Below, in pieces: positions 2,703-30,000 of a stretch of 64,000 nucleotides of DNA. Each line of letters opens with the position of its first letter. Position 1 is the stretch's first letter. This stretch comes from a virus: IMG/VR virus record IMGVR_UViG_3300017746_000002, positions 59,270 through 123,269 of that record. One strand, written 5' to 3'. The translations under genes and the position numbers were made by a program. The notes below the pieces were generated by a model. The model saw only the letters and a list, made by a program, of their open reading frames with translations. It searched no databases and had not been told where the DNA came from.

Positions 2703-5700
2703 CTAAACTCCAAATATCCAATCTCTTAAAGCTTTCTTACTTCTTGCTAGCTCTTTTTTTCTATCACAGGAAGAACAACCTACTTCATTACCATATTTTA
2801 CTTCTGTAGTATTTTCTATTTCTGTTTCTTCATCCTTATTATTAGTCATATTAGAACGTAACGGTGTAGAAGATGCTGAACCTTGTCCCATATATTGTTT
2901 AATACAATTAAGCATTTGATTTGTATTATCTTTAAAGCCCATATCGTTACATGCTGTTCTTGCATTTTGCATTGTCATTTGTTCTGTAGCTTTATTAGCA
3001 TTAAGATCATCAGGATTATAAAATGTGTTCATATGATTCTGAGCATCATAGTAGTAATTAGGATTCTCCATATTTAATGCATATAACTTATCTGCATTAT
3101 CCATTCTTTCTACTTGTGTATCTACAATGTTTGCATTATCTGCAGCCATTGTATTATCAAAATTATTTAATGCTGTTGCTACTCTTGTGTTATATTCATC
3201 TCTATTAGCTGAATTTGTAGCCATTGCGTTATTTAATATTTGAGACTTTCTTGCTTCACTGTTGTCAAAGATCTTAATGTTTGTATTTGCTACATCAGAA
3301 ATACCTTTATTCATCTTATCACTAATTTGTCCCATATAGAATGAAGCATTTGCAGGATCAGCTTTTGCTAACTGTTGTGCCATAGCTAAGTTAGCTTGTA
3401 TCATAGCTTGAGGATCTTGATATGCTACATCAGGAAGAACAGGATCTACATTTTGCCTAGTAGGCATATATAAATTTCTATCCCACTTTTGACCAATAGC
3501 ATTTTGTAGTCTAAGATCATCCTGTGGGAAAGTCATATAAGGAGGAATTTCTCTATCTTCTGGTGTTTCAGGTTTTGTTTTACAACTACAAGTATCTAAA
3601 TCAAATTCTTGTCCTTTACTTAAACATTCAGCAGCTATTCTTTTTTGTTCTGCTTCATCACATTTTATATCTGTAATAATTTCTTCTTCATGTACTTCAT
3701 TAGTAGCAGAACTATATTGTCCAGCAGATGCCATTCCTATTATACCATCAAGATCTGACATTGGTAAACCAGTTCTTTCATCTATGTGTCTTCCACCTTT
3801 ATGCTTTCCTCCTTTTAAATCTAAAGTAATATTACCAAAAAATGCATCTGCTTGATCTAAATCTGTTTCTGTACCTTTTAGATCTTGCATTGCTGTAAAC
3901 ATTCCTTGGAACATTTTAGCATTTTGTGCATAGGTATCACCTTCACAATCACCCCAACCAAACTCTTCACATATAGCTTTATATCCTCCTGATTTAAAGT
4001 CAGTTGGGTTATAACCTGCATGTTTAGCTTGGAGAAGTTTATCATTCATATCCATATATGCTGTAAACAACTCTTCTTCTGATTTACCTGATACTGGTTG
4101 ATTAGCTACTATTCTTTTTAAATCTTTAACACTAAGATCACCAAGCTTCTTTCCATCTTTAATAGATTTTTTTATTGCCTCTATACCACCTGCATTTAAA
4201 ACAACATCATCCCATTGTTTTTCAAGAGCCCTATAACCTTCAACCCATGCAGTTCTAACATCTGCAAAATCTTCACCCATAACATGATTATAGAATTCTT
4301 GGTGTGCAGCTCTACCTGCTTCTCTACCTTTATATTTATCTGAATCATGTGCATTCTTATGATTACAATCATCACCTGTACATATAGGTTGTCCTTTTTG
4401 CATTTGTGGTAGTTCCATGCCATCTCTTGCCATCATCATACCTGCGCCTTGCATAGCAGGATTAGAACCAGTATACATTGAAGGATCTGCAATCTGCACA
4501 TTTGGCATAGATTGATCTAAGTCCATTATTGAACCTGCTAATACATCTTTTCTTTGAACACTTCTCATTTGAAGCTCAACGTCTCTCATTTGTGCTTGGA
4601 GATTATTTATTTGTTTTTCAAACTCCTCTTGCGCTTTCTTTTCTTTAAACATATGAGGATTTGCTTGATGATACTTTATAGCTGCAGAATGCTCTTGCTG
4701 CATCATTTCTAATTGTGAACCAAGAGATCTATACATAGGGTTACTTGTATATGATGGAGTTAATGGATCTAACTCAATCTCATTTGATCTACCCATAGAT
4801 ATACCCATATTATCTTGTCCCCCATAAACAAATCTTCTTAGTGAACCACCTCTACTCATTCCTGGTAGTCCAAGAGGATTTTGATCTCTTACATATCCTT
4901 CAGGAACTCCCATTGTAGGAACCATTGGTTGACCTGTTTCAACACCCATTTGTCCAAATAGTGGATCTTTAAAGCCAGCCCCTAAATCTCTATCTCCATG
5001 TATTGCATCCCATTCAGCTTTTATATTGTTAGTTGATTCAAACATAGCTTCTGATCTAGCATCTGGTCCACCAGTATTTCCACCTCCTTGCATTTTGGGC
5101 ATATTACCATAAGGCATGTTAGGTAAATTTTCATGACCTGGCATGATTCTTGTGTCTGTATCAGGAGCTTTCATTTTGTCAAGAGCTTTAGTCTTATAGC
5201 TCTCATACATAAATTTAACTTCTTTTATATCTTTTAATCTATATGCAAATCTCCACTCATCATATGTACATAGTTGATTCTTACATTTTGTAGCTAAATC
5301 AAATTCAACCTTAACTTCTGGTTCTTCTTGTAAAGCTTTACCTACTCCTGCACCAGCAACTGCACCAGCTGATTGAGCAGGCACTTCTCCTTGAGTTTGA
5401 TAAGGCATTAAGTCTCCACCATACTTCATACCAGGACCTTTATAATTTTTATTTGTATCAGCTGCATGTTTCATTGCTGCACTAGGTGGAGGATTTCCAT
5501 ATGCTGGACATGGTGGATGATCATCTTCTGCTGAATTATCCTGTGGCGTATTCTCAACTGGAGCAACACTGTAAGTAGATTTTTTAAATCCACCAAATAA
5601 TAACTTATCTAACTTTGTTGGATTGTTTGGCATACCACCCGTTACACCACCAGCTGCCATTTGTGGAGGAACCATCATACCTTGTGCTTGCATATCAGTA

Positions 5701-6383
5701 GGAGGTTGAGGTGGCATCATACCTTGAGGAGGCATTCCTTGAGCCATACCTTGTTGTGGTTGTTGCTCTGGATTCTTTTCAGCATTAATCTGATCTATCT
5801 TTTGTTGAAATTGTTGAGGGTCTACACCTTTAGCCATTAAATATGGAAAAGCAGCTAATGGTAAACCATTCTCAAAATCTTTTTTAGATTCTTGGATAAA
5901 TGCTATCTGAGATAACATTATCTTATTTTTATTAATCATCTGTTCTGCAGTTTCAACTGCAATCTTATCAGATGTTTCATCTTCTAATGTTTCTATATAT
6001 TTATTTAAAGGAAATTTCTTAGCAGCTTTAGCAGGAGTAATTCTTTTCTTTTGTTCAATTCCTAAAGATTTCATTTCATCTTTAGTTAAAAGCATTCCTC
6101 TTGTGTCAGAGTAAATAAAACTTTGGTCTGGTAAACTTAAAGGAGTACCTCCTTCATTATGTCTTTTACCTCCTATGTTATATAATTCAAATACTCCATC
6201 TCCTGACGTGTCAGTTAATGCTACTTCACCTTTTTCTGCTTCTAAATTAGCTGCTTCTCTATCAACAGGCTTTAATGTATTGCTAGAAGTAGCACCACCA
6301 GCAGCATATGTTTTTATAACTTTACCGTTTCTTACAGTAAAACCTTTGGGTAATGAATTTTTATTTATTTTTATTTTTGCCAT
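2703..6383 (-). CDS. Large low-complexity virion protein with NGG/YGG motifs
   Basis: A 1226-residue protein. The N-terminal 200 residues form an ordered region containing GGKRHNEGGTPLSLPDQSF, a Gly-rich signature I associate with structural proteins of Bacteroidota phages. A Pro/Gln/Met/Gly-rich linker follows near residues 200-245. Copies of the recurring virion motif lie near residue 325 (YGGDLMPYQTQGE) and residue 518 (FVYGGQDNMG). A Cys module near residues 915-935 (AAECLSKGQEFDLDTCSCK) resembles one in the next gene upstream. The C-terminal third is Asn/Gln/Ala-rich and helical, ending with a CSSC pair. The gene starts 3 bases after the upstream stop, so the two are probably translated together. 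Function is unknown; a cargo or ejected virion protein is possible. Confidence 0.85.
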   Translation of the reverse strand: MAKIKINKNSLPKGFTVRNGKVIKTYAAGGATSSNTLKPVDREAANLEAEKGEVALTDTSGDGVFELYNIGGKRHNEGGTPLSLPDQSFIYSDTRGMLLTKDEMKSLGIEQKKRITPAKAAKKFPLNKYIETLEDETSDKIAVETAEQMINKNKIMLSQIAFIQESKKDFENGLPLAAFPYLMAKGVDPQQFQQKIDQINAEKNPEQQPQQGMAQGMPPQGMMPPQPPTDMQAQGMMVPPQMAAGGVTGGMPNNPTKLDKLLFGGFKKSTYSVAPVENTPQDNSAEDDHPPCPAYGNPPPSAAMKHAADTNKNYKGPGMKYGGDLMPYQTQGEVPAQSAGAVAGAGVGKALQEEPEVKVEFDLATKCKNQLCTYDEWRFAYRLKDIKEVKFMYESYKTKALDKMKAPDTDTRIMPGHENLPNMPYGNMPKMQGGGNTGGPDARSEAMFESTNNIKAEWDAIHGDRDLGAGFKDPLFGQMGVETGQPMVPTMGVPEGYVRDQNPLGLPGMSRGGSLRRFVYGGQDNMGISMGRSNEIELDPLTPSYTSNPMYRSLGSQLEMMQQEHSAAIKYHQANPHMFKEKKAQEEFEKQINNLQAQMRDVELQMRSVQRKDVLAGSIMDLDQSMPNVQIADPSMYTGSNPAMQGAGMMMARDGMELPQMQKGQPICTGDDCNHKNAHDSDKYKGREAGRAAHQEFYNHVMGEDFADVRTAWVEGYRALEKQWDDVVLNAGGIEAIKKSIKDGKKLGDLSVKDLKRIVANQPVSGKSEEELFTAYMDMNDKLLQAKHAGYNPTDFKSGGYKAICEEFGWGDCEGDTYAQNAKMFQGMFTAMQDLKGTETDLDQADAFFGNITLDLKGGKHKGGRHIDERTGLPMSDLDGIIGMASAGQYSSATNEVHEEEIITDIKCDEAEQKRIAAECLSKGQEFDLDTCSCKTKPETPEDREIPPYMTFPQDDLRLQNAIGQKWDRNLYMPTRQNVDPVLPDVAYQDPQAMIQANLAMAQQLAKADPANASFYMGQISDKMNKGISDVANTNIKIFDNSEARKSQILNNAMATNSANRDEYNTRVATALNNFDNTMAADNANIVDTQVERMDNADKLYALNMENPNYYYDAQNHMNTFYNPDDLNANKATEQMTMQNARTACNDMGFKDNTNQMLNCIKQYMGQGSASSTPLRSNMTNNKDEETEIENTTEVKYGNEVGCSSCDRKKELARSKKALRDWIFGV

Positions 6384-6385
6384 AA

Positions 6386-9300
6386 TTATATAATTTCTAT
6401 ATCAGCACCTGCTTTTATTAGTTCTTGTAATAATTCATAATCTATTTCTACTTCAGTTCCATACTTTGCTACCTTATCTATTTTAGGTTCATCTTTTTTC
6501 TTAGCTATAGTAGAAGGTGCAGGTTTTTCTGTTTTTGGTAGAGTAGTTTCTTCTGCTTTAGCAATTAAAGCACTTGGACTTTTACCGTCCTTTTTATCTG
6601 GAGTTACGGCATCAGCAACTTGTGTAGTCATACTTCTACCATCAGTAACACCTGCATATTCAGCGGCATCCTTTGCTACTGAAGCCGCACCTACTGCTAT
6701 TCCAGCTCCAGGTATCATTGAGGCAGCATTAATTGCCATATTTTCTGTATGCTTCATTGCTCCCTCTGTATCTCCTTCATAAGCAGAATAACCAGCTCTA
6801 GCACCAGATGTAGCTGTATTAACAGCATCCACAACATTACCTACAATAGGAACTGTACCTGCTGCTGACATAGCTGTTTGTGCATAATCTAAACCTTTAT
6901 TTATAGGAGTTTTAAAATCAGTTTCTTCATACCAATTTTTTGCTTTATCCCACCATCCGTCTTTTGCCATTGGTAAATGACCACCATAAGCCATTTTAGC
7001 CATTATTTGTTTTTGATATGCAATAACTTCAGGGCTATAACCTATCTCTACATTATAAGGATTAGATCCTGTAAACTCAGCTAGTGCTGCATAGTTAACA
7101 TTATCTACAACCGGTTGTGCCATACCCTGTCCACCCATTTGCATTATTAATGGAGCCTTCATATTATTACCAGAATAGATTTCATCTACTTTCTCATTAG
7201 TAAAGCTATCTCCACTATTAACATCATGTATTCCTTGTGAAGATTCCTGAACCATAAATTGAGATTCAGCATCAGTATTTTCTGTTTCAGCCTTTGTTTG
7301 AGCAGCATCATTTGCCCATCCTTCTAAAACAGCATTACCAAAGTCTGCCCATTTAGTTACAGCTCCTGATACATCACCATATGTATTTATAGCTCTATCT
7401 ACTATACCTGTTTTAGTATTAGCTTTTACTCTATTAGCAATATTACCATAACTTGAGTCAACTACTCCTGAATCAGCAACAGTAGTCTCATCCATTTCAT
7501 TCATTTCTTCTTCAGTCATGTTTGCTTCTTCCTCATCAGTAGTACCGTCACCTTCTGGACTTCCATCTGGTGGTGGAGTTGCATTTGCGTCAGGATTATT
7601 TGCATCATTGTTAGCATTTTCATTTGTTTCATCTACAGGAACTTCTTTCTTTTCTGCATTATTATCTTTTGGAGGATCACTAGGACCATCAGATTTATTT
7701 TTATTATCCTTATCTTTTTCTCCTTCATCTTGATAGAAAGGTAGTGCACCTCCATTTCTGTAAAAGTTTAACTTGTCTGCACGTTCTTGATCATCTTGCA
7801 TTAATAATTTATGTAACCATTCTCTATTTAATTGTAACTTTCCTGCTGGACCTAAATTGCTTTGATGATTTTGATCTTGTCCTATAACGTTTCTGTACAT
7901 CCAACTATTAGCTAAATCATTTTCAATACGTAAACTATCCCTAGTTATTGCATTTTGTAATTCATTAGCAGTAAAATTCCCTGTATATGGAACAACTGAT
8001 GTTCTTGGAAAATTAGGAGTGTACTCTAAAAAGTCATGTACTTTTTCACCTTTATCTTGATATTTGTCAAGTTGTTTTTGACCACCGTATACAAACATTT
8101 CTAATCCCATACTAGCTTCTTCTCTTTCTTTTCTTAATCTATTTTTTCTTTCCTGATTTCCTTCTTGAGTTTTAATAACTTTTGTAGCACCATTAGTATA
8201 TTTAATTGTTGTAGTACCATCACCATTATCAACTCTACTTTCTTCTATTAAGCCACTAGGATTATCATTTCCATCGTCATTATTATTATTATTATCTTCT
8301 TCTCTCTTTTCTCTCTTTATTTCTTCACTTGATTTTTTTATGACTTTCTTATTATCAGTATAATCATTTTCTGGATCATAATCTTCAATTTGTAAATTTG
8401 ACATACCATCATCCATTATAACATTAGGATCTGCTTCAGGTCCTGTTCTTACTAAACTTGTTACATCAGCATCAGGATTAACTAATATATCAGTTACACT
8501 ATAATCTTTAGTTTTATCTCTTGCTTTATCAAACTCTGTTCTATCATTTTCTGAATCAAAAGCTCTAGTTTTTGTTACTGTTTTAGTTACTGTTTTTGGA
8601 TTTTCCTCACTTTCTGGTTCATCAGGATTGAAATTTGGATTATCTTCTGTAACTTCTTCTTCATATTCTACATCATCATAAGTTACATTTCCTGTTACAC
8701 GGTCCATTGTTTGTCTAGAAGCAACATTAGTATTGTCTAAATGACCTTTTTCATTATATTCAGTAATTAAATTATCTCTATGATCTTGGAACTCATTAAA
8801 TCTTCTAGAAGTATGCATTCCTTGTGTGCCTATAACATCAGATAGTTTCATGTCTTTATCACCAGACTCAATAAACTTTTGTAAATTAGCATCATCCCAA
8901 TATAACTGTGCATCATTTGCATTACCAATCTTACTTGTATCAAGAGTGGTTTGTTTAAAGTCTGCTTTTGTATAAGGTTTGCCTGTTTTAGGATTTATTG
9001 ACTGTCTTCCAAATCCTTTTATTGCTTGTCCTGTAGAACCAATTGCATCAGCTAAAAGACCCCATTTAGATGTTGGAGATAATTCATAATCAGGAGTTCC
9101 TTTTTTTGTTCCTTGTCCTAAATTGTGAGAATTAACAACATCCTCCATTTCTTTTTTACTAATCTTACCATTTTGATAATCTTGTATAGCTTTTTGCTTA
9201 TCAGTTTCTGAAGACTCTTCTACTTTTTCTATACATGTACATGTAGCTGGATCTACTTTAAGTCCTTTCTTAGCACATTCAAAATATACAGATTTTTCAC

Positions 9301-9784
9301 AACCTTCACCTTCAGGACTACCATCACCTTCTCCATCATTATCTTCTGCATTCTCACTTATCTGTTCACCACATGTGCTTTTAGTAGGACTACAACTTCC
9401 AGAAGAAAAATATTCTTCTCCTGCTCTTTCCCATCCTTCTGGACATATACATTTATTATCTACAGACTCATCAGTATAGTCTCCACCTCTCGTACCATCA
9501 GTTTCCTCACCTTCAGTGTTCTCTTCACTTGGAGTACCTTTTAAATATTCTTGATATTGTTCTTGTGCATTTGCACCCTTTCTATTTACTGGATCTTGTA
9601 GTACCCATTCTTTAAAGTCTAGTTTCTTATCAACAGTTTCTTCCTCTTCCACTGTTTCTTCAATAGGACCTTCAGTCTGATACCATGGTAATGCACCACC
9701 ATTACGCATAAGATATTGATACTGATCCAAGTATGGATAAACGTCAAAAGTTTGATTTTTTATATTTTTTTTCTTTTTTGCCAT
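6386..9784 (-). CDS. Large acidic, Cys-module virion protein with repeated GGALPxYQ motif
   Basis: A 1132-residue protein with a Lys-rich start (MAKKKKNIKNQ). It is very acidic and low in complexity, with Glu/Asp/Asn-rich linkers. The recurring virion motif appears near residues 28-38 (NGGALPWYQTEG), 565-580 (YGGQKQLDKYQDKGE), 680-692 (NGGALPFYQDEGE) and 930-942 (YGGHLPMAKDGW). Between the first two are Cys modules (CICPEGWERAGEEYFSSGSC; FECAKKGLKVDPATCTC). The last 170 residues hold Gly/Ala-rich hydrophobic helices (AAGTVPIVGNVVDAVNTATSG; MIPGAGIAVGAASVAK) that could be membrane-active. This architecture fits a virion protein that is processed or ejected, but no enzyme domain is visible. An AT-rich promoter-like element precedes the gene. 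Confidence 0.85.
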   Translation of the reverse strand: MAKKKKNIKNQTFDVYPYLDQYQYLMRNGGALPWYQTEGPIEETVEEEETVDKKLDFKEWVLQDPVNRKGANAQEQYQEYLKGTPSEENTEGEETDGTRGGDYTDESVDNKCICPEGWERAGEEYFSSGSCSPTKSTCGEQISENAEDNDGEGDGSPEGEGCEKSVYFECAKKGLKVDPATCTCIEKVEESSETDKQKAIQDYQNGKISKKEMEDVVNSHNLGQGTKKGTPDYELSPTSKWGLLADAIGSTGQAIKGFGRQSINPKTGKPYTKADFKQTTLDTSKIGNANDAQLYWDDANLQKFIESGDKDMKLSDVIGTQGMHTSRRFNEFQDHRDNLITEYNEKGHLDNTNVASRQTMDRVTGNVTYDDVEYEEEVTEDNPNFNPDEPESEENPKTVTKTVTKTRAFDSENDRTEFDKARDKTKDYSVTDILVNPDADVTSLVRTGPEADPNVIMDDGMSNLQIEDYDPENDYTDNKKVIKKSSEEIKREKREEDNNNNNDDGNDNPSGLIEESRVDNGDGTTTIKYTNGATKVIKTQEGNQERKNRLRKEREEASMGLEMFVYGGQKQLDKYQDKGEKVHDFLEYTPNFPRTSVVPYTGNFTANELQNAITRDSLRIENDLANSWMYRNVIGQDQNHQSNLGPAGKLQLNREWLHKLLMQDDQERADKLNFYRNGGALPFYQDEGEKDKDNKNKSDGPSDPPKDNNAEKKEVPVDETNENANNDANNPDANATPPPDGSPEGDGTTDEEEANMTEEEMNEMDETTVADSGVVDSSYGNIANRVKANTKTGIVDRAINTYGDVSGAVTKWADFGNAVLEGWANDAAQTKAETENTDAESQFMVQESSQGIHDVNSGDSFTNEKVDEIYSGNNMKAPLIMQMGGQGMAQPVVDNVNYAALAEFTGSNPYNVEIGYSPEVIAYQKQIMAKMAYGGHLPMAKDGWWDKAKNWYEETDFKTPINKGLDYAQTAMSAAGTVPIVGNVVDAVNTATSGARAGYSAYEGDTEGAMKHTENMAINAASMIPGAGIAVGAASVAKDAAEYAGVTDGRSMTTQVADAVTPDKKDGKSPSALIAKAEETTLPKTEKPAPSTIAKKKDEPKIDKVAKYGTEVEIDYELLQELIKAGADIEII

Positions 9785-9800
9785 TTTATTTCATTACATA

Positions 9801-9817
9801 TATAATATACTAAAAAT
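9801..9817 (-). promoter_or_regulatory. Candidate phage late promoter element
   Basis: The plus strand reads TATAATATACTAAAAAT, which is TTTTTAGTATATTATA on the coding strand, 16 bases before the start of the 1132-residue protein. The core TATATTATA with a preceding TTAG or TTTTG recurs ahead of other late genes. The copy upstream of the scaffold gene is identical to this one over 21 bases (9793-9813 and 40881-40901). No promoter function has been shown. Confidence 0.4.
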
Positions 9818-9829
9818 CAAGCACATTAA

Positions 9830-11548
9830 CTAACTTTTAGTTAGTGACTTCATGTACTCTACTGTATCTAAACCTGCTTTTTTAGAATCTTGATAATAAA
9901 CTCTATTAAGTTTATCATATATTCTTTTTAACTTTTTTTGATATGGTGTACCTTCTGCAGCACCACTTACGTGTGCCATATACAATGCTATCTGGTCATC
10001 TATAGGAATAACTTTATCATCTCCAAGTGTTACGTTTTTTACATTTGTATTTACATCAAGATCTTCAAATGTTATTTCTGGAGCAGAAGGAGGAGGTGTA
10101 GTTAATGCTTCTACATTAGGATCTGTTACTTCTTCATTAGGTATCATTCCTAGTGCGCTTAGATGTTTTAATCCTGAAGGTGATAATTTATCTCCGTTTC
10201 TATATTTTTTTATAAGTTTCTTTGTTAATTCATGAGCTCTTTGTTGATCATGTATTTGTTGAGCAATATCAATTATTTGAAAATTACCTGATCCATCTGC
10301 ATCATCTTTATCATAATACACTCTATCATCTATATCTTTATGTTTATAGTTTACATAAGGTAAGTTTCTTCCTTTATCAAAGTCTTTTTTAATAGTATAG
10401 TTACCTTGAGGTGTTTCAATCTTTTTTTCAGAACCCATTTGAAACTTAGGTAAGAAAGCACCATTACGCATCATATCTGCAATTACACCATCTTGGTTTT
10501 TAAGAGCAAGCTTTTCTTTATTGTAAGGAGATTGTTTAACAGAGCCACCATACTTAGCCATCATAGTATTACTACCATCATCTATTTCATCATTAGATGT
10601 AAATGTATTCATCATATCAACAACTTGATTATCATCAAACTGCTCTAATAATTGTTTATCTTTTATAAACTTATCTGGATTTTCTTTTATATAATCTATA
10701 TGTGATTGGTCAAACATAAAGTCTTCCTCAAAATTATATAAACCTGCTTTCCATAACTCATACCTTGTTGTATCTATGTCAGATTTAATTTCATAGCTTC
10801 TTGTATCATGAGGTATTTGTAAATTATTATCAGACCAAAGAAAATCACTTCCTTTCTCTCTAGTGATCTCTCTTTCACCCTCAGTCATTAAAAACTCTTG
10901 TGCAACGTTATCTTTAGTATTAGGATGATTAGCACCTAATGCATGAGAATATTCATTAACAAGAATACTATTAAATGGATCATAAGATAATTCATTATCT
11001 TCTGCCATTGTTACAGCTTGTCCTGGGTTTACTTTAACTATAGGATTTATATTACCTTCATCTTTATAATTAGGTCTTTTATAGCTAGATTGTAATCTAT
11101 CAAATTTCTCCTGTAGATTCATCATAGTGAATATATTAGCATCTTCACTATAATCCCTAGCATATATCTCTGCCCATTCTTCTTCTCCACTAAAGTCAAC
11201 TTCTGTATCTTCTAATCTTTTTAGTTTACCATCTCTTACTTTTTTCCATTCTTCTTCACCATGTAAATCTATTGCTCTACGTTTAAATAAATCACTATTT
11301 AAGTAAGCTGTAAAATAATCTTTGACTTCTGAACCTTCCTGAGCCATAGGTATTTCCCTTACCATATTTGTATCAAACTTATGAAGACCTGAGTTAGGAC
11401 CTAGAATAACATTATTAGCAAGTAAAGGCATGCTTACATCTGTCATATCTATAATTCCATCTGGTGTATGAATATCTAAGTATGGTCTATCCTTATAAGG
11501 AGAGTCATCTTTATATCCTTGTTTTGATATATCTTTTTGATCTTCCAT
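9830..11548 (-). CDS. Virion protein with degenerate zinc-metallopeptidase-like motif
   Basis: A 572-residue protein. Residues about 190-210 read ILVNEYSHALGANHP. This has the surroundings of a gluzincin-type HExxH helix, but Asn198 replaces the first His, giving NEYSH. A downstream helix near residue 250 (SYEIKSDIDTTRYELW) could supply the third ligand of such a fold. The recurring virion motif occurs near residues 66-72 (IPMAQEGSE), 330 (AKYGGSVKQSPY) and 358-370 (NGAFLPKFQMGSE). The gene overlaps the upstream gene as TAATG, so translation is probably coupled. Either it is an inactive peptidase-like structural protein or the zinc site is unconventional. The assignment to a peptidase fold is by motif only. 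Confidence 0.8.
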   Translation of the reverse strand: MEDQKDISKQGYKDDSPYKDRPYLDIHTPDGIIDMTDVSMPLLANNVILGPNSGLHKFDTNMVREIPMAQEGSEVKDYFTAYLNSDLFKRRAIDLHGEEEWKKVRDGKLKRLEDTEVDFSGEEEWAEIYARDYSEDANIFTMMNLQEKFDRLQSSYKRPNYKDEGNINPIVKVNPGQAVTMAEDNELSYDPFNSILVNEYSHALGANHPNTKDNVAQEFLMTEGEREITREKGSDFLWSDNNLQIPHDTRSYEIKSDIDTTRYELWKAGLYNFEEDFMFDQSHIDYIKENPDKFIKDKQLLEQFDDNQVVDMMNTFTSNDEIDDGSNTMMAKYGGSVKQSPYNKEKLALKNQDGVIADMMRNGAFLPKFQMGSEKKIETPQGNYTIKKDFDKGRNLPYVNYKHKDIDDRVYYDKDDADGSGNFQIIDIAQQIHDQQRAHELTKKLIKKYRNGDKLSPSGLKHLSALGMIPNEEVTDPNVEALTTPPPSAPEITFEDLDVNTNVKNVTLGDDKVIPIDDQIALYMAHVSGAAEGTPYQKKLKRIYDKLNRVYYQDSKKAGLDTVEYMKSLTKS

Positions 11549-14500
11549 TATCTCATTGAAATATTTAACTTAGTATTATTTAATCTTAATAACATTTTTC
11601 TATTTTCAGATTTAACTCTTCTTAGTAAGATGTGATTATAGTAATGTCTAAATTTCTTTCTTTGTGTTTGTGCTTTATTATAATTTAAATTAGCAGCATT
11701 AAGATTTCTTATATATCCATTCCATTGTGTATTAAACACTGTTTGTTGAGCTGCTGAAAATTCTCCTCTATCATTTGTAATATCCCAGAACTGGTTAAAT
11801 CTATATTTTTGTTCTTCTTTACTATATAATATATCTATAAAGCCTCCACCAATTATTGGGAATGTAGATGCTAATACAGGATTATTTTTAGGTGTAATGT
11901 TTAATCTTAATAATCCAGATACTTGTTCTGTATTATATATTATTGCTTCATCAAAATTCCAATCTAAATCATGGAATCTATCTTTACTTTCATTTTGATA
12001 TACATATGATTCTAACTGATATTCTAAACTTCTTATAGTTGTAACACTTTGACCACTATGTTCTATTAAGTCAACTTCCCACGGGTAGTCTATACCATAA
12101 TAATTAGCATATAAATCAGTTCTTGTATTGTGTCTCCATATAGAAGATCCTTGTATTTGAGCTCTACAATTTTTACAACTTGCATTACAAAACCCAGGAT
12201 CAATATATGTTAAACCATTTGGTGATCCATTAGAATCATATTCATAATCAAATAACTCTTGTGCAGTAAGACAAGGTGTACCATCATCCCATGATGTGTA
12301 CGCACCGTTTGATTGTTCACATTGATTTCTAAATGTTCCTAAACTGTTATTACTACCATTACCAGTACAACCACAATTAGATTGACCACATACAGTATAT
12401 TGATAATTACCAAAAGCATTTTGACCACAAGGTAAAACTAAATCATATCCTGTTGAGCAAACTTGACCATTAGTTAAAACTGAATCAACACAAGCAGAAG
12501 TACCTACACCAGCATCTGGAGTCATATTTATAAGAAGCAGATTTGTTAATCTTGGTACTGTAATTTGAATATCTTCACAACACTCTTCTTCAACTGGATC
12601 CCATGTATAGCCAGGAGGACAATTAATTTCTCCTTCTTTAGTTGTTAAAAAATGATTTATACTATTAAATGTTAAATCAGGATGCCAATCATGAAATGAA
12701 ATCCATGCTTTAGATTTAGGATCATAGCTAACAGTCCATGAAGCATCTTCAAAGAAACTAGAATCATTTAATTGTATTGGTGATTTATTAGGAGCTGCTT
12801 TACTACAACCAGGACCGGATATTCCAGATAAACAATCAAGATTTACATAAAAACCTCCTTCACAATCATCAAAACAAATACAATCAGTTGTTGGTTCATA
12901 ATCTTTTTTACTAAAATATATAATATCATTCATAGGATCATATACTGACTGTACACCTATTCCTGTAACTGGATTATCAGCAACTGAAGGACAATCTTCT
13001 ACATTAGGTAATGCAGATATTAATCTTGATGGTAAATATTTATTAAACCACCATTTCATTCCTTGATCAGATATAGCTGATAGACCTTTTGAACCATATT
13101 GAAATATTTTTCCTTGTGCTTGAGATACATAAAATAATCCCATAGGTGTATTAATAACACTTCTTGCGCTTTCACATGAACCATACTCATGTGATAAATC
13201 TGAGTTTGCTACATTTTGAAATGCTTGACTAAATAAACCTCCGTCACCAATAATAAGTTTAGTACCACCTTTGTCCATATTTAATGCGTCTACACCTTGA
13301 AACATTTGTGGAGATATTGTTGGAAATAATATTAATGCACCTGTTTTATTAATAGGTTTAATTGTATTAACTGTAGATTTAAAATCTCTAAAGTTTTTAC
13401 TAAGGAATATTCTCCAAAAGTCTTTATTAGCTTCTTTCTTTTGTTGTTTAAGTTTCTTTAATGTTACACCACCTGTTGGTAAAGAATATATTAATCTCTT
13501 AGGAAACTTTGTTAAACATGTCTCTGAAACATAAGGGTCATACCATCTAGGTTGTATTTCACCAAAAGATGTATTCCAAAATCTTTTTTGATTTAATGAT
13601 TTATCATATTTATAATAATTATCTACATCTTGAATTTTAGCATCAAACATAGTATTTATATCAGTATAATCTAAATAGTCATAATGACGTGTAGTTATAC
13701 TATCAGAGTAATCTCTATGTGCTACATTTATTTCAGATTCAACAAAGAAATCTTGTACACCATTGTTATGTGTATACATATAATGTTCAGTAACAACAAA
13801 CACACCACCACTATTATCTGTATCTGTAGCAGCTTCATAAGGTGGATCAGGAGTTTCATAATCTACATTATCAAAACTTTGAGGAATAGGAGTACCACCT
13901 GATATATTAATTTGAAAATCAGCTCTACTTTGGCCTTCATAACCTGTTGATGTACCATCACCACCAATATATGAAAATAATCCTCCTTTGCTTCCTGAAT
14001 TACCTCCTTGTATTGTGTGTATATTATACTTAAGTGGGAATGTTGAACAAAGAGTTGATGTTCTACTTGTACCGCCATGTACTATTGTTACAGTATCAAA
14101 ATTTTGTTTAGGTAGTAGTTGATTAACATTAGTTGTTGAACCACCACTAGGTATTGGATTAGGAGTTACATTTCCAGGTGGTTTTAACCATGAGTATCTG
14201 TTATCAACTACATATTCAAAACCTCCAGTATTCCAATTATATACTGCAGCTAAACCAAATACAGAAGCTTCTAATGACATAGTTTGATTTACATATCCTG
14301 GTTTTTCAGTACCAGCACTTCCTCCTTCTATACTACTTCCAAAATTTTGGGCATTTGGAGTTCCATCACAACCTCCATTAATTGCATTATTTTGATAATG
14401 TCTATCAGCTTGACCTCCTATTCCATTAACCTTAAAAAAATTTTTATCAGTTAAAGGTCCGCTTATTGCACTACCCGCTCCATTTTGAAGTTCACCTCTT

Positions 14501-17500
14501 TTATATTCTCCACTTATTACACCTTGCACATCTCTAACATCTGTTGGGTCATCTGGATGTGTTATTGTTATAACATCTGTAACACCATTAAAAGAAACTA
14601 CATTCTGAGTTGCAGATTTTATATTAACATTAATATTTACTACTCCCGTTAACTTAAGAACAGAATAATTTTGATGCCATTTATATATAGGATCACCATT
14701 AGCATCTGTAACAGTAGGCATTGTACCATTTGCTTGACCACCTGTTCCTAATACATTTCCTGATTGTGTCCAAGCTTTTGCTTGATCATTACATGTAGTT
14801 GCTTGGAATGTTATATATGAATCTACCCAAGCAGCACCACTAAGAGCTCCTGTATAAACAGCATTTGCATTTGCATAATTATTAAATAGATTACCATTAT
14901 TAAGAGGCGGAAGTGTAGAATCTGGTTGTATACAAGATGGTAAACAAGGATTAGAACCTGTATAACACGGGCCCAGTGTATTCCAACAATCATTACATGT
15001 ACAGGATACTCCATCACCATCTTCAGGAAGTTCCCATGCACCATTTGCCCATGTATTAGCTGTTTCAATTACATGAGGTGTATAAAGTCCTGGACCTCCA
15101 GCACCAGGTGTAGAATTAGTATTTATACTATCAATAAGTAATTCATTTGTAGTATCATAACTTGCTGTTATTCCACCTGTAGGAGAATTATTAGGATCAA
15201 AATTACCTGCTCCTGAAAATGTAGCGCTACTTCCTTCACAAACAATTGCACCAGGTCCATCAAGATGGTATAAATCTCCAGGAGTATGTCCTCTCCAGTC
15301 AAAAGTAAGATCAGTAATAGGTTTAATATACTCATCCATTCTAAACTTATTAGAATCTAACCAGTATCTTGGATAAGGAACATTAGGATAATTCTTATAA
15401 TCCCAAGCAATTCCGTCTGGTTCACCATCTTTTAGAAAGTCCCAGAAAAAAGGCATACTAGTTTTTTCAGTATATCTGTTTATATATACATCTCCACCCC
15501 AATGAACTTCTGACCATCCACCATTAGTAGTAATTGTTGTTCCAGCAACTAAAGAATCATGACTAAAATAATTACAATCACCACCTGCAGGTTGCATTAA
15601 TATATTATCTATTTGTCCATATTGGTTATCTATATTTACTTTTAGTGCTGCATAATTTACTGCAATAGGTTTACATGTTTGTACTCCTGGTGAATACCAT
15701 GTAACTGTTGCACCTGTTCCATCATCACGTGTAGGATTTTGGCAATCATTACATAGACCATCACCAATAGTAAACTTAGAAAAATCATTACCATTAGGAT
15801 CTAAAAGACCACCATAAGTACCATCTATTACTGTTCCACCTGGACCTGTACTTCCAGCTCCAGTTAAATTTTGTGTGCTTAATACTACTGTTGATTGTCT
15901 TCTTAAATTATTAATCATCACATTTCCTGGAAATGCAGAAAACGCTTGTTTTATATATCTTGCATCTTCAACATTTCTTCTCCATGCAGTATCATCCATA
16001 CCAAAAGGTTGCATTATATCATTAGAAACATCTGCACCACTCCATGTAAGAGGAGGTAATATAACTTCTTCATTATAAAAACCGTGAGATATATACTTAT
16101 ATACATGATCTTGATATGATACAAGATTTCTAATGAGATCTAATATTTTATCACCACCCGTAGCAACATAATTAAGGAATGCAAATATACCTGTAATCAT
16201 TGCCATAAGTCTTGGAACACCTGTAAAGTCTGTCCCTCTCATTGTTATTGTCTTTTCACTACCTGATGCAGCACCTGTTAATCCTGTTGCTCCACTTTCA
16301 GCTGCGTTAAATGCTGGTATTGCTATTTGTTTTGCATCACGTCCAAAACCTAAAACAGTAGCACCATCAAGAACCATATCTAAAGCTCCTTTTGCAATAT
16401 ATGTTAAACCCATACCTACTAAGTGAAATACAGAATTGGCAAGAGATAAACCATTACCTACAATAGGAAATGGAGATAAAGCTGTACCAGAACCTAATGC
16501 TTTTACATCAGACATACCAGCAGGGTTTTGTCCTGCACCTGTTATTGATAAATCTTCTGGTCCTCTCATTTGGTTAATTGCATAACCAACACCAATAATA
16601 GCTGCTACAAAAACAGCTCTTTTCTTTATAAGTTTAAATCTAGGATGTTCTTCTGATCTTTTAAAGTTTCCTAATTGTTTTCCTCTTATTGTTTTATATA
16701 ATTTTATTTCACTAGGATTTAAAAACATTCTTGAAAACATTGTATCTGGAGAATGGAATGTAAAATAATCACGTGTTATTTCACCTAGCCCTCTAGTATC
16801 TGTAGATGAATGTTTAGTTGGATCTACTAAGAAGTTATCTTCAATACCATCATACCAGGGTCTGTTTGAAATTAACTCTCCTTGATTTCTATTTAAAAGA
16901 TAAGGATCCGTATGTAAATCATTATATGGATAGTTAGGAAATACACCCCATGATCTATCAGCTTGTCTTGGTCCATCATCACTGTATAATTGACTTGTTG
17001 TAGTATCTCTTTCATAGGTAAACATATTTCTAATAATACCTTTTGCTAGAATAGATTTATTACCACTTCTACTTCCTGTTAATATTTCATAACCAACTAT
17101 CCCTGGAATAAGTGTTCCATTATTATCTACTGGTGGATATATGTTATCAAACTTAGCTCCTAGTATATTTATAAACTCTCCTGTTACACCATTAACTGTT
17201 GGACTTAAAAGTGCTGCATCAGTTCCTAGTAATGTTTCATCAGGAAACTTATGATGTCTAATTGGTTGACCACATAAGTCATGATTAGGTATTCCTGTAG
17301 TTGGATTTACAGTACCATAATTAGACCAAGCATGTTCACTAGAATTCCATCTTATAGGATCATGTGGATATAACTCTGTAGATTGCCAGTAACCCATATG
17401 ACCTTCACCCGTTTTAACACCGCCAAATTTTTCATCTTTTATATCACCAATATCTCCTGCTGCAATTGAGTTAGCTGTATTTATACCTTCAAAATAAAGT

Positions 17501-18774
17501 TCTTGAGAACCATTTGGAGCAATGTTAATTCCAGTTACATTAAGTGGATCATTTGTTTGTAAAGGAGGATTTGGAACATATCCCGGTAAGTTTGAAGCAA
17601 CATCACCCGGTGGTTTACCTGGAATGTGATATGCTTTAGATTTATCACCTGTATTATATATCCATCTTATAAAGAAAGCATACTGTTCATCCCTCATAAA
17701 AGAAGGCTTGTTACCTCCGTTTGTATAATATGTTGAAGGGTATCTCCATGACTCCCAATGAGCATGTATTAAGTTTGCTAATGGTTGATAATTAAAATCA
17801 AACTTTTCTGTAGGTTGTGATCTAATTAAATAATCATTAACAACATACATCCCATCTGATTTTTCATATACAGGATTTCTTACTATTAATGCTAGGTCAG
17901 TTAAAACTTCTAATCTACCATCAATATAATCAATGTTTATTGTTGTTTGTTCAGTGCTATAATATCCAACAATTCTTGTACTAATAGCATTGTGAGTTTT
18001 AAATCTTATTACAAGTTGAAAGTTATCAAAGTCTTTATCAAGATTACTAATATTAATATCTAATGAACCTGAAGGACCACTATGATTCCATAATGATTGT
18101 AAGTTTGATATACCAACATAATCACCTATAACTTGATTATCTAATGTATATGCAATAAAAGCTTGATATGTACCATTAACTAAAGATCCTCCTTCTTCTG
18201 CTTTTGATAATGTTATACAAGGTATATCCATGTAAGGAGCTAGTCTTATAGCATCACAATCTAAATCTGTAGTATATTGTACATCACATGGATCTATAAT
18301 AGGAGTAACAGGTTTATAAGGAACATTATCTAAATTTAAAACTCTTGAAGGGTTTAAAGCATCATCCCAATATACTAACCATTGACAATCATAATTTTCT
18401 TTTGAAACACCAACAATTAAATGATCAGTACTAAAGTTAAGACATCCGTCATTTACAATAGGTTTATACTCACATCTGCTGTCATCAAATCTACCAATTT
18501 CTGAATTTATATTATCAGTAGAAAAAATAGCCCATATATCTCCATATAAATGAATACCGCCTATTATTTTATAAGGTATAGTGACACATTGTAAATTTGC
18601 AGGTTCATTTCCAATAACACCTACATCACCATCAATAGAATTATTTATAGCATTACGTGCATGATTCCAATTTTGTTTGGACATGTAACTTGCATCAGAA
18701 TCTTTTATCATCCCTTTCGGGGTTAAATTAGTTTCTGTTGTAGAAGTTGGTTGATTTTGTTTTTTCTTTGCCAT
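11548..18774 (-). CDS. Tail nozzle-like / giant tail protein
   Basis: A 2408-residue protein. Residues 17-60 (MIKDSDASYMSKQNWNHARN, then DGDVGVIGNEPANL) resemble the start of podovirus tail nozzle proteins (T7 gp12-like), where a disordered start is followed by 'DA-N-...-G-V-...-N-x-x-G/A-N' and beta-propeller blades. Much of the rest is beta-rich, with Tyr/Trp/Gly/Asn-rich repeats. A hydrophobic Ala/Gly-rich insertion lies near residues 715-890 (FVAAIIGVGYAI; MAMITGIFAFLNYVA). Cys-rich stretches follow, including CPPGYTWDPVEEECC near residue 2065. The length is several times that of typical nozzles, so extra domains have been added. It is the first of the low-complexity giant group and ends in a TAATG overlap with the next gene. 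The nozzle role is inferred from the N-terminal signature and from neighbouring connector candidates. Confidence 0.8.
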   Translation of the reverse strand: MAKKKQNQPTSTTETNLTPKGMIKDSDASYMSKQNWNHARNAINNSIDGDVGVIGNEPANLQCVTIPYKIIGGIHLYGDIWAIFSTDNINSEIGRFDDSRCEYKPIVNDGCLNFSTDHLIVGVSKENYDCQWLVYWDDALNPSRVLNLDNVPYKPVTPIIDPCDVQYTTDLDCDAIRLAPYMDIPCITLSKAEEGGSLVNGTYQAFIAYTLDNQVIGDYVGISNLQSLWNHSGPSGSLDINISNLDKDFDNFQLVIRFKTHNAISTRIVGYYSTEQTTINIDYIDGRLEVLTDLALIVRNPVYEKSDGMYVVNDYLIRSQPTEKFDFNYQPLANLIHAHWESWRYPSTYYTNGGNKPSFMRDEQYAFFIRWIYNTGDKSKAYHIPGKPPGDVASNLPGYVPNPPLQTNDPLNVTGINIAPNGSQELYFEGINTANSIAAGDIGDIKDEKFGGVKTGEGHMGYWQSTELYPHDPIRWNSSEHAWSNYGTVNPTTGIPNHDLCGQPIRHHKFPDETLLGTDAALLSPTVNGVTGEFINILGAKFDNIYPPVDNNGTLIPGIVGYEILTGSRSGNKSILAKGIIRNMFTYERDTTTSQLYSDDGPRQADRSWGVFPNYPYNDLHTDPYLLNRNQGELISNRPWYDGIEDNFLVDPTKHSSTDTRGLGEITRDYFTFHSPDTMFSRMFLNPSEIKLYKTIRGKQLGNFKRSEEHPRFKLIKKRAVFVAAIIGVGYAINQMRGPEDLSITGAGQNPAGMSDVKALGSGTALSPFPIVGNGLSLANSVFHLVGMGLTYIAKGALDMVLDGATVLGFGRDAKQIAIPAFNAAESGATGLTGAASGSEKTITMRGTDFTGVPRLMAMITGIFAFLNYVATGGDKILDLIRNLVSYQDHVYKYISHGFYNEEVILPPLTWSGADVSNDIMQPFGMDDTAWRRNVEDARYIKQAFSAFPGNVMINNLRRQSTVVLSTQNLTGAGSTGPGGTVIDGTYGGLLDPNGNDFSKFTIGDGLCNDCQNPTRDDGTGATVTWYSPGVQTCKPIAVNYAALKVNIDNQYGQIDNILMQPAGGDCNYFSHDSLVAGTTITTNGGWSEVHWGGDVYINRYTEKTSMPFFWDFLKDGEPDGIAWDYKNYPNVPYPRYWLDSNKFRMDEYIKPITDLTFDWRGHTPGDLYHLDGPGAIVCEGSSATFSGAGNFDPNNSPTGGITASYDTTNELLIDSINTNSTPGAGGPGLYTPHVIETANTWANGAWELPEDGDGVSCTCNDCWNTLGPCYTGSNPCLPSCIQPDSTLPPLNNGNLFNNYANANAVYTGALSGAAWVDSYITFQATTCNDQAKAWTQSGNVLGTGGQANGTMPTVTDANGDPIYKWHQNYSVLKLTGVVNINVNIKSATQNVVSFNGVTDVITITHPDDPTDVRDVQGVISGEYKRGELQNGAGSAISGPLTDKNFFKVNGIGGQADRHYQNNAINGGCDGTPNAQNFGSSIEGGSAGTEKPGYVNQTMSLEASVFGLAAVYNWNTGGFEYVVDNRYSWLKPPGNVTPNPIPSGGSTTNVNQLLPKQNFDTVTIVHGGTSRTSTLCSTFPLKYNIHTIQGGNSGSKGGLFSYIGGDGTSTGYEGQSRADFQINISGGTPIPQSFDNVDYETPDPPYEAATDTDNSGGVFVVTEHYMYTHNNGVQDFFVESEINVAHRDYSDSITTRHYDYLDYTDINTMFDAKIQDVDNYYKYDKSLNQKRFWNTSFGEIQPRWYDPYVSETCLTKFPKRLIYSLPTGGVTLKKLKQQKKEANKDFWRIFLSKNFRDFKSTVNTIKPINKTGALILFPTISPQMFQGVDALNMDKGGTKLIIGDGGLFSQAFQNVANSDLSHEYGSCESARSVINTPMGLFYVSQAQGKIFQYGSKGLSAISDQGMKWWFNKYLPSRLISALPNVEDCPSVADNPVTGIGVQSVYDPMNDIIYFSKKDYEPTTDCICFDDCEGGFYVNLDCLSGISGPGCSKAAPNKSPIQLNDSSFFEDASWTVSYDPKSKAWISFHDWHPDLTFNSINHFLTTKEGEINCPPGYTWDPVEEECCEDIQITVPRLTNLLLINMTPDAGVGTSACVDSVLTNGQVCSTGYDLVLPCGQNAFGNYQYTVCGQSNCGCTGNGSNNSLGTFRNQCEQSNGAYTSWDDGTPCLTAQELFDYEYDSNGSPNGLTYIDPGFCNASCKNCRAQIQGSSIWRHNTRTDLYANYYGIDYPWEVDLIEHSGQSVTTIRSLEYQLESYVYQNESKDRFHDLDWNFDEAIIYNTEQVSGLLRLNITPKNNPVLASTFPIIGGGFIDILYSKEEQKYRFNQFWDITNDRGEFSAAQQTVFNTQWNGYIRNLNAANLNYNKAQTQRKKFRHYYNHILLRRVKSENRKMLLRLNNTKLNISMR

Positions 18775-24064: not shown

Positions 24065-27000
24065 CTAACATCCACCACAAGCACATCCAGTACCAGATTC
24101 ACAAGCTGCACATGATGAATACATTGTACCAATAGGGGAAGGTAGACAAACATTATGAACATCTAACGTACATGCTGCACTACAAAACCCAACCCAAATT
24201 TGTTCCCAATTAGTACTATTTGCACTTAGTAAATCTTCTACCTGTCTTGCATCTAAACCAGTAATATTTGGTTTTCCACCTGTCCCATCAAAACCATAAG
24301 TATTTATCAGTTCAGATCTTAGTTCTCCCCAACTTAGTGTAGAAGTATTATAATCTCTATACCATAATTGTCCTTGACCATTACTATCTGAGTCGTATAT
24401 TGCCATTGCTGAAATTATCATTGGTTTGGCATGTGATTCTTGAACCATACTTCCTGATGAACCACTACCAATATTAAAACCACTTGTGCCAGCTGGTGAC
24501 TGATAATTCATATTAGTATACACTGTATTTATTTGAGCACTACTCCACGCACATCCAAAAGAACTATTTGTTGCACTCCAGAAAAACCAATCATTAGCAT
24601 ACTCTTCAAGACTTCCACTTATAGCATTTGACCAAGCATATACAGCACTTTGATTATCATTCCAATCTGTCATAGCATAACTCATAGTTTGGCATGAGTT
24701 AGTAAATTGAGTTAACTGATAAGATCTACTTAACTCATGTCTACTAGAAAAATCACCTCCATTTCCACTAGAATTAGTAAGTGCATGACCTATTGCCCCA
24801 GATCCATCAAAACATGGATTACTAAATGGGATTGCTGTACATTCAAAATAAGCAGGTGGTGCTGCACAACAGCTAGTACAACTTGCTACTATATCTGTAG
24901 AATTATAATAGTATCCTGGATTTCCACCCCATTCATATGATACTAAACCATTAACTTCAAAAGACATAAAATTAGAAGCATTTGAATCCATACAACCTGC
25001 ATATGTACATGCATCCGGTTGATGTGTATCAGCATTAACATCATATGTTAAAGCAGCTGGATCCATACATCCTAACATCTGACCCCCTCCTGATCCACCA
25101 CATAAATCTGGATTATCAAAACATGCACTAAATTCATAATTCACATCTGTAGCGTCCATACAACCAGTACAATAACAACATGATCCATCATCATAAGTAG
25201 CATTCGGATCATAGTTTAATGCTGGTATACCATATTGATAAAAATTTGGTACTCCAGTACCAACTGTTCCTGAACCACCATTAATAACTAGTTCATGAGC
25301 TACTATACCATTTTCACATGGAACTTGTTGACTATAAGATATGCCGGCTGCATTTGCTGCATTTATCCACCAATTGTCTACTGTTACTGCACCATATGTT
25401 CCAAAATCAGGATGTTGATCTACATATCCATCATCAATACAACCACCTATTTCTACTGGTTGTTCTCCACAACAATTAATAGCATCTTCACAATCTTGTT
25501 CAGTTGGATGAGTTCCTGGTTGTCCACCATTATCTGATGCAGTAAGTACTCTATTACATTCACAATCAGTATATCCTGTACATTGAGGTTCATGACCTTT
25601 ATAATATACAAAATTATCTTCTGGATCAGGATTATACATGTTAGCTGACCCATTTATATTATAGTGAAATTGAACAACATAACTATAGTCTTGACCAGAT
25701 AGTATTATAGGAATTTGACTTCCTGCACAAGTTTGGTTAGGACCACCTGCTCCATTATGCCAATTAACATATGCATCCCAAGTAGGAAATACATAACCTG
25801 CTCCATATTGTGCAATTTGTAATTGTGCATAACAACTAGCACTTCCTGTAGGTCCATAAGGATTCTCTGTAGTAAAACCTTCTATAGTTAACAGTGGATA
25901 ATCTGATGCTTGAGGAAAACCAGGCATAAGTTCTGTTAACGGACATGCGGTCATACTTGAAAATGAGCCAAAATTACTAGTACCTGTAGTGTTTGCTACA
26001 GCAGTTACTTCTAGATTAGGTGTTAAACCTGTATTACCTACTGCAGAATAATAATCAGCAAGTGTAAAATAAAAACCATCTATATCACAAAATCCACCTG
26101 GACATGTTGTATCTACATAAATACCTGTATTATTAAGATTAGAAAGTGTATAGTTGTATTGTGTTATTTCATTTATATCATAACCAGCTTCATCACAATC
26201 CCAATAGTATATACAAGAATTATCATCACATGTTGCATTAGGATCATAGTTACCGGCTATAGGATCCATACAACCATTTTCACATAAATCACAACATGAA
26301 TCCCATCCTGCATTATTTGTACCTATTGGTTCCATATTACAATCATGTGTACATGATGCACAATATCCTTGCGGACCTGTTACAGCATTAGGATCTGTAC
26401 AACCTGCTTCACAACATGTGTCAGGATCTGTTGCATCAGGATTATAACAGAAATATTTATAACCTTCTGGTGTACCTGTTAATGTTCCATCGCTTGTACA
26501 AGGATAAGTACATACTGCACCACTTTGATTTAGACCGTTAATATTAGGCCATATTCCAGCTGCACTATCCATACAACCATATATTAAAGGTGGTTGATCT
26601 AAATTAATTGTTATTGTAGCAGTACAATTTCTTGCATCTGTTACTGTTAAAGTATATATTCCACCGGCTAAACTTGTAATTGCAGCAGTAGTTGCTGTAT
26701 AACCACTTGGTCCTGTCCAAGAATAAGTATAAGGTATAGTACCATTAGATGCAATTGCTGTAATATTTCCATCATTTACACCAGCCGCACTTGCATTAAT
26801 ATGTGCTTCAGCAATAATAATTGCTGGATCACAATATAAACAAGTTCCATCATCTACTGTAGCCATAGAGTTATAGTTACTTGAATTTGGATCTGTACAT
26901 CCTTCAATCACCTGAGTAGGTGATACATATGTTTCACAAGATACTCCTGTTGGATCTACACAACATTCAGGAGCACATTCTTCATTTACTACTATTTTTA

Positions 27001-30000
27001 TTTGTTGTTGTCTACAGTTACCTTTTGTTTCAAGACATAAACAGAAATTAATTATATGATTTGTTTTTATAGCAGCATTTTCTATTTGGAATTTTAATCT
27101 ACCAAACTCATCTGTTTTACCTTCAAAACCTCCGTCAACATAAATAGCATAATCAGGAATTGCTACATTATTTTGATTTACTACATTAACTACAATACAT
27201 TCTGAACCATCACATTTTAACTTATTAGGATCCCAATATTTTTCAAGATCAGCTTTAAATAAACTAGAATTAAATGTTCCTGATCCCACATTAGCACGCC
27301 AACCATAATTATCTAATCCCCCATACCCATATGTATGAGAAGATGGTTGATTTGGATTAGTAGCATCCCAATATGGATTACCCGTTTCAATATTTACTAA
27401 GTTAACAAGTGAATTAGTAGGGGCAGTACCTGCAGCATATCTACCATCCTGTGGATCATTATTACCACTATCTACTGCAGCTAATGCATGTAATGGAAAT
27501 GCACGATGTGAAGGCGCTGGTGTTACTAATGGTTTAGCAGGATAAATCACCATTGTTGCTTTATGTAATGGACCTTTTGCTAAATGTTCTTTATATTTTT
27601 CTATATATTTATCATAATCAGCTTTATAACATGCTGTTAATACTGAGTCAGTAGCATTAGTACCTGTACCATCAGTAGCCATAGGCCATGTTGTTGTACA
27701 TGCGTTAACAGCACATCCTTCTACATGATAAGGTTGTGCATCAGAACCAGTTCCATCTAGAGTAGCTGATTCATCAGCAAAGAATACTCCTAATACTTCT
27801 CTTTTTGTAAGAGCTGGTGGATAACCAAAATGTGTTATAGTACCATTGTCATATCCTAAAGGTGCAGAAGAATACCAAGTTTTATTATTTATATTACCCC
27901 AAGCCATTGGAGCCCAAAATTTACTAGTAACACTCATATCTGTTGGAGCCACAGCATCTGCTCTACCAGAATTAATACAAGCTCCATGATCAGCAGCAAC
28001 ACTATTTACTACACAAAATGAATCTTTACCTCCACATGTTCCAGCATTATTCCAATTTCCTGTAAATATTGTTGTTGCCCAATCTACCCATCTTTCTCCA
28101 CATACTAGGACATGATATACTTCACCTGCAAAAGGTATTGCAAATCCATTAATCCAATCATCTGCAGCATTTCTTTGTTGTTGAATTGCAGCAATACCCA
28201 TTGATGTACAATCATACATAAAGTAAATATCTATATCTACATCTGATATTAAACCACAGTTTTTGGATGTCCAAGCCGGTCTAGTTGGATCTAACCAATC
28301 AGGTTCACCTTCTACAATAGGATATTCATATGTAGCTAAGACTTCTATTGTTGAACTTAAATAAGCAGGTCGTTTAGTATCTTCCCAATCACATAATTGT
28401 TTTTCATGAAGATGATCTGGTAAATCAGAACCACAATAGTTTGATAAACCGTATCTTTCTTTTCTGTATTCTTTGTATACATCACTTGCAAATTCACATT
28501 CAATGTTTAATTTTTTAGTAGGATCAGATCCAAACTCTCTTGGAGCTCTTTTACATTGATCTAAATATTTACAAGGGTCTGTTGGATCTGTAGCAGATGT
28601 TGCATTTATTGTTGCAGTTGGATCAAAGTTAATTGCATTTATATCTGTACATCCATAAACTGTATAATCACAACAACTTGCACATGCTGTATTAGCTGTA
28701 GGGTCATAATTATTTGCTGTAGAATCCATACATCCTTCTTTAACTGCTTCACAAGGTCCTTCACAACAACATGTAGCACAATAATTAAATGCTTGTGGAT
28801 CTAAACAACCTGTTTCATTACAACAAGAACCATCATCACAAGTTGCAGAGGCATCGTAGTTACACATTGTAGGATCTGTGCATCCATAGATACAAACACA
28901 TGATGCGCAATTAGTATTCCATATTTCATTAAACTCCCATATACTCATTTGTGGCATAGGAAAACCTGGAGCAGATACAGTTGCGGCAGAAGTCCCTTTG
29001 TATTCATAACATATTCGTCCAGCTCCATCTACAGTATTTATTGTTTGTCCTATAGCAGGAGAGCCTACATTTATCCAAAAATCATGTTGTGCAAAAATAT
29101 CTGTATTTGTAGCACCAGGTGCAACTAATGTAAATTCACCCGCTGGATCTCCACTACATGCAGACCATTTATGAAACTCAGGTTTTTCACATGTTCCATC
29201 ATCACAAGTTACACATGGATTATAATTACTATTTAAATAACCAGCAGTACAAGGATATGGACATAAATTACCTATTGTTGGTACTGTAGTTGACACAGCA
29301 CAATTATAAATAGCAGTATTATCATAACCGTTTATATCAGGAAAACCATTAGTTAATGTGGTACTATCCATACAACCATATACACAATATGTACAACAAC
29401 CATCATCAAATGTTGGAGAGACTGTAGCACCAGCACAATTTTTATTAAAGTTAAGTGCATTTGGATCAGTACATCCTCCAACACCAAAACAGAATTGACA
29501 TTGTGCATCTGAATTAACAGTAGGATTATTAGGTGTATATACAAAGTTACCTGCAGTTGATGCTAGAGTTGGAAAAAATTGTGCTGTTGGATTAGGTCCA
29601 TTAAGTGCTAACCAATCTTGGTAGTATTGAATACTAGTATCTACCCATTGTACACAGTAAACATATGTTACTCCATCATGAACATAATTAACACCTACAA
29701 TATCCCAGAAATTCTGTAATCCCCATGCAGTTATTAATGCTTGTGAGTTTGCACATGTTTGAGGATCACCCGGATCACCAAGATATGCCCTATAATACAT
29801 TTCATTACCCATAGCCATATCACTACAGAACCTAATTACAAAAGGATCACAATTTTGACAACTACCATCATCACAAGATGCTAACGGATCATAATTGTTT
29901 GCTGTTGGATCTGTGCAACCATATACACATGCACAACAGTTAGAATCACCATTAGTTGGATTTGTTAATGTAGTTTGACATTCTATCTGAGTAGAATATG

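Follow-up and report, generated by a model that had tools for sequence, protein, structure and literature searches.

What does a short peptide do that recurs between otherwise different domains of four large proteins of one phage? The peptide was analyzed in a window of 64,000 nucleotides, which forms the end of a 123-kb virus record, and in related genomes carrying it. A processing site, a docking tag for virion packaging and a flexible linker had been offered as explanations in the original prediction.

The motif and the phage that carries it

The motif is a ten-residue peptide, typically GGxLPKAQxG, with the core hPxAQxG and the usual form [KYF][KQR]x-GGxLPKAQxG; written out in letters, one form of it is KYGGSLPKAQDG. 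The pattern G[GA]xL[PQM]x[AYFM][QK] has 7 matches in the proteome of the 123-kb virus record versus a mean of 0.1 in residue shuffles, and all 7 are confined to the four proteins described below. The motif is real and occurs far above chance. Each of the eight peptides quoted in the original prediction was found in the gene to which it had been ascribed, and the copies YGGQKQLDKYQDKGE (8048–8089), EIPMAQEG (11333–11356), and GMELPQMQKG (4392–4421) were added to them.

All of these genes and copies lie on the minus strand. The first cargo-slot protein (9830–11548, 572 aa) consists of an N-cap domain closed by the variant EIPMAQEG, a variable middle, and a C-cap; in the model its copy GAFLPKFQMG (10433–10462) is a coil that leads from a helix to the beta module after it. 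The second (6386–9784, 1132 aa) has at least four copies: GGALPWYQTE (9671–9700) close to the N-terminus, the variant YGGQKQLDKYQDKG (8048–8089), GGALPFYQDE (7724–7753), and GGHLPMAKDG (6956–6985), at or just before which a homologous block in relatives L022 and L124 begins. The third (2703–6383, 1226 aa) has an N-terminal region of ∼250 aa that is conserved and common to relatives, and copies near 5391–5420 (GGDLMPYQTQ) and 4392–4421. The fourth (50808–56177, 1789 aa) is a module mosaic outside the cargo slot, with the copies GGSLPKAQFG (54414–54443), GGQLQKAQNG (52815–52844), and MLPKYQSKG (51744–51776).

By gene content and order the phage is of the crAss-like type. The major capsid protein by which it was identified (37862–39493, minus strand) matches the Pfam family Crass_capsid (PF23898) with an E-value of 8.3e-32, PHROG matches were obtained for the portal and terminase, and the portal, terminase, and muzzle genes are in crassvirus order. 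The muzzle-type protein (11548–18774, minus strand, 2408 aa) is related to its phi17:2 and csAssE-Sib counterparts. A 3247-aa ORF on the structural strand (24065–33808, minus strand) has no Pfam or PHROG match, and parts of it resemble ORFs of relatives G017, G020, and G028. A DUF2201 metallopeptidase with VWA, a spore photoproduct lyase-like protein, a B12-type ribonucleotide reductase, and a sugar-transferase-like protein are also encoded by this virus at L007:6318-7478, L007:16313-17167, L008:13887-15746, and L008:10873-11550.

Full-length window proteins used as homologue queries gave no match in phages or IMG/VR, but the motif searched as a DNA pattern did. Back-translated GGxLPKAQxG was found in at least 119 stretches across all of IMG/VR, compared with 5 for the permuted control GGxPLKAQxG. 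All but a few of the matches sit in long open frames, where one protein often has several, and Crass_capsid was matched in 38 of 42 long carrier contigs. A scan of 257 Gb from 85,000 bacterial and archaeal genomes gave 62 matches, nearly all in short or unrelated frames, and the sole convincing one looks like a phage contig inside a MAG. L177 (WLWP01000004.1), which was binned into a Pseudomonadales MAG, appears to be a contig of a crAss-like phage. Leptolyngbya phage Lbo-JY46 has MKIRIIGLPKAQIGME at one N-terminus.

Position of the motif in genomes and proteins

The region downstream of the capsid gene was mapped in 20 relatives, and the motif was scored by profile. Because these relatives had been selected for at least one strict copy, the contrast between gene slots is informative and the total count is not. 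Of 105 copies, 96 lie in the four genes that follow the muzzle gene (42, 35, 16, and 3 from first to fourth). No copy was found in 37,800 aa of muzzle or in 107,600 aa encoded past the cargo slot, where the genes are of RNA-polymerase type by position; other large structural proteins have 1 copy in 78,800 aa and small proteins have 8. Shuffled sequences gave 3 profile matches in all. By gene order the four-gene slot corresponds to that of the crAss001 cargo proteins gp45 and gp46. The window muzzle gene, which defines the slot, likewise lacks the motif, and three of the four window motif proteins lie between it and the RNA-polymerase-type genes.

N-terminal copies number 11 versus 3.3 expected, and they occur on single-module proteins and on small basic proteins. 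The C-terminal count is hardly above chance (4 versus 3.3), and GGWLDKY stands at several extreme C-termini. Small lysine-rich ORFs between the capsid and tail genes of relatives G041, G026, G012, G028, and G011 have LPKAQ- or KKMQxGG-like elements, mostly near the N-terminus, and most of these ORFs have a lysine-rich tail, for example GG..KSKKK at the end. In the third cargo ORF of relatives an N-terminal M-x-[KR]-[IV]-[KR]-[IV]-x-[KR]-LP is near-universal, and the conserved domain after it shows the pattern EAEGGET...PRHSxGGVPLxLPxxSFIFSDT.

BLAST alignments end within 15 aa of the motif in 17.7% and 15.6% of cases versus 6% after random shift, a clustering ∼2.5 to 3 times that of random shifts. 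With the motif core masked, the 145 motif contexts were grouped by their flanks into 104 families upstream and 104 downstream, some of which could be merged by distant homology. Among multi-member families, two or more downstream partners were seen for 22 of 26 upstream families, and two or more upstream partners for 17 of 22 downstream families. Several homologous blocks in the 1789-aa window protein start or stop at motif copies: residues 575–1121 match L087 from motif to motif (a 563-column block, also in L097, that spans from GGSLPKAQFG to the next copy), the lysozyme module starts at 1110, and the last module at 1466. In alignment A2, upstream-only and downstream-only relatives agree without exception only at the motif Q and G. 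The motif is thus a seam between interchangeable modules and marks module borders and protein ends. The modules in relatives include LysM, SLT, YkuD, SET, and metallopeptidase-like (zincin) domains; SET domain matches lie within cargo-slot proteins of relatives L203 and L200.

At synonymous positions the motif is as variable as the background, with 123 distinct DNA spellings among 127 copies and 45 spellings of the motif core versus 54 expected (range 42–67). Codon choice is therefore free, and selection acts on the peptide.

In the model of the first cargo protein, numbered one below the ORF, the N-cap domain is confident, spans about 66 residues, and has VREIPMAQEG as its end; after it come a poorly modeled middle, the motif (363–372) in coil, and a confident C-cap. 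With this model Foldseek returned nothing from PDB and one LysM virus protein from BFVD (56 columns, E 0.0075, prob 1.00). For the lysozyme-like domain of 50808–56177 the best Foldseek matches include T4 gp5 lysozyme, T4 lysozyme, and pesticin, with prob up to about 0.9 and no E-value below 0.001. In the moderately confident AlphaFold model, pLDDT falls below 50 at the motif (fragment residues 108–124, the GGQLQKAQNG copy), which is predicted to be a linker of low confidence that joins a structured domain to the lysozyme-like one. The same ORF has a duplicated module with a hydrophobic, P-rich pattern at about residues 589–690 and 1485–1592, which we take to resemble the pretoxin domains of polymorphic toxins. 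As originally described, motif copies stand before the T4-lysozyme-like domain and before both copies of this module, the second of which follows MLPKYQSKG. A similar segment comes after GGHLPMAKDG in ORF 6386–9784.

The alignment ends, blocks, flank families, and models strongly support the claim that a shared motif lies at domain borders of otherwise different proteins. The enrichment was also tested against shared ancestry of the proteins, and ancestry was not found to account for it. That the motif proteins are virion proteins is suggested by their gene slot and by homology, through relatives, to phi4:1 gp40.

A candidate recognition tag and its rivals

That unrelated modules conserve the same residues argues for recognition by a constant partner. 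The best explanation, to which we give nearly an even chance, is that the peptide serves as a recognition tag, used again and again, in the cargo (ejection) proteins of crassviruses, which are probably carried inside the virion and ejected into bacteria. The tag may stand at the head of every cargo module and serve in its docking or loading within the virion. Every copy would be bound by a constant virion or assembly part (the portal, tail barrel, muzzle, or scaffold), and any tagged module would thereby be loaded and anchored and would be ejected in line. Payloads, among them cell-wall enzymes, zincins, SET domains, and pretoxin-like segments, would be swapped by recombination from tag to tag, with loading kept. 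The copies at N-termini and on small basic proteins, together with GGWLDKY at C-termini, favor a binding tag. A fuller version, in which the peptide is the standard adaptor of a plug-in payload system, GGxLPKAQxG-headed modules are recognized by a constant virion part, and recombination there builds new chains, is possible and is put forward more tentatively. The motif is not a general packaging tag, since the RNA-polymerase proteins packaged in crAss001 correspond by position to the motif-free downstream genes; a universal capsid-packaging tag is disfavored on the same grounds.

A close rival, possible though somewhat doubtful, is that a protease, of the phage or of the host, cuts at each motif and so frees the modules, either while the head is being assembled or once the cargo has been ejected. 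The modules carry different activities (LysM, SLT, YkuD, SET, and zincins), the N-terminal copies resemble leaders, and the N-cap domain terminates at the motif. Phage precedents are the proposal for polyvalent proteins (PMC5512222) and the known AXE motif of SPN3US head proteins (PMC10052503). An HExxH zincin-like site is present in a motif ORF of 11 of the 20 relatives, but the window and the other 9 relatives have none in their motif ORFs; zincin autoprocessing as a universal mechanism is unsupported. Cutting at the GGWLDKY copies of extreme C-termini would free nothing and leave nothing for removal. The matching protease that the original prediction envisaged was not recognized: S78 and Clp-type proteases were not found in 19 carriers with working controls, an S77 search lacking a positive control was silent, and a scan of about 40 proteins of the window virus gave no prohead protease. 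This outcome leans, short of proof, toward docking, and the two readings are not separable by sequence.

A role in self-association or after ejection, with the tag linking cargo chains or binding a host factor in the envelope or cytoplasm, would suit the several copies per chain, the cargo slot, and the cell-wall-active modules; no host partner is known, and this role is unlikely. Still less probable is a passive flexible linker or leftover homology of duplicated modules. The motif does lie in predicted linkers and some modules are duplicated, but L, P, K, A, Q, and G would not then be kept across 104 × 104 unrelated flank families, nor would A2 be invariant at the motif Q and G only; the linker is thus the one of the three original proposals to be disfavored. 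A DNA-level recombination or site-specific exchange sequence, translated by chance, would explain why module swaps take place at the motif, but its strict form is refuted by the background-like synonymous variation, and it is very improbable.

If the peptide is a recognition tag, it bears on crassviruses as a group, which are among the most abundant phages and whose ejected-cargo density is mostly unresolved. A conserved tag on cargo modules would help to locate ejected payload modules in metagenomes, would predict division or anchor points of cargo chains, and would supply a defined peptide whose binding or cleavage could be assayed in studies of protein loading and ejection.

Comparison with known systems

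Cargo proteins are themselves of a known kind, and within the searchable literature a tag at their seams appears to be undescribed: a search for LPKAQ and phage gave nothing relevant, and no PDB chain matched the motif peptide. The T4 capsid targeting sequences are N-terminal peptides on internal proteins, whereas the carrier motif is mostly internal and repeated, with an unrelated sequence. Sortase LPxTG was rejected on position, because the carrier motif is internal and repeated. The substrates of the SPN3US prohead protease share with the carriers a short repeated motif, AXE, in head proteins thought to be ejected (PMC10052503); AXE differs in sequence and lies in propeptides rather than module joints, and searches of the carriers for S78 and Clp-type proteases were negative.

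Polyvalent proteins (Iyer et al. 2017, PMC5512222) are also large multidomain mosaics near virion genes and are presumed to be delivered. Several unrelated domains per polypeptide with mosaic swaps, by which such proteins are recognized, were found in the carriers, and some polyvalent proteins contain zincin peptidases. The carrier domain set differs in being mostly cell-wall-active and unassigned, and a conserved intermodule peptide is not described in the passages of that account that were consulted.

Cellulophaga phage phi4:1 gp40 and phi17:2 gp41 are virion proteins identified by MS/MS (the gp40 record is annotated from MS/MS proteomics) and have in common with the carriers the N-cap domain and the V-x-E-x-P border. 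The match has 39% identity and an E-value of 2e-6 with a consensus of relatives; the window N-cap connects to gp40 only through these relatives. The motif is degenerate in both proteins, and a link to phi17:2 gp41 through xGG counts was rejected since the enrichment is not significant.

The crAss001 cargo protein C1 (gp45, PDB 7qog) is encoded directly after the muzzle gene, as in the window slot (PMC10172136). Homology of the window proteins to gp45 or gp46 was not detected, and tblastn gave no match to any phage record. The gp45 protein differs in that it has no LPKAQ and no evident mosaic of catalytic modules, and the likeness is a degenerate one, with a modest excess of xGG-type sites (8, against 3.2 in shuffled sequences; p about 0.01). 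It does have repeated xGGx[LI] elements, and its ordered segments start at or just past such an element: the portal-bound segment, reported as 425–552, starts exactly at A425-F-G-G-W-L, and the tail-barrel helix 214–245 comes after AYGGPL 207–212 (PMC10172136). These segment starts at GG elements are a suggestive hint of docking.
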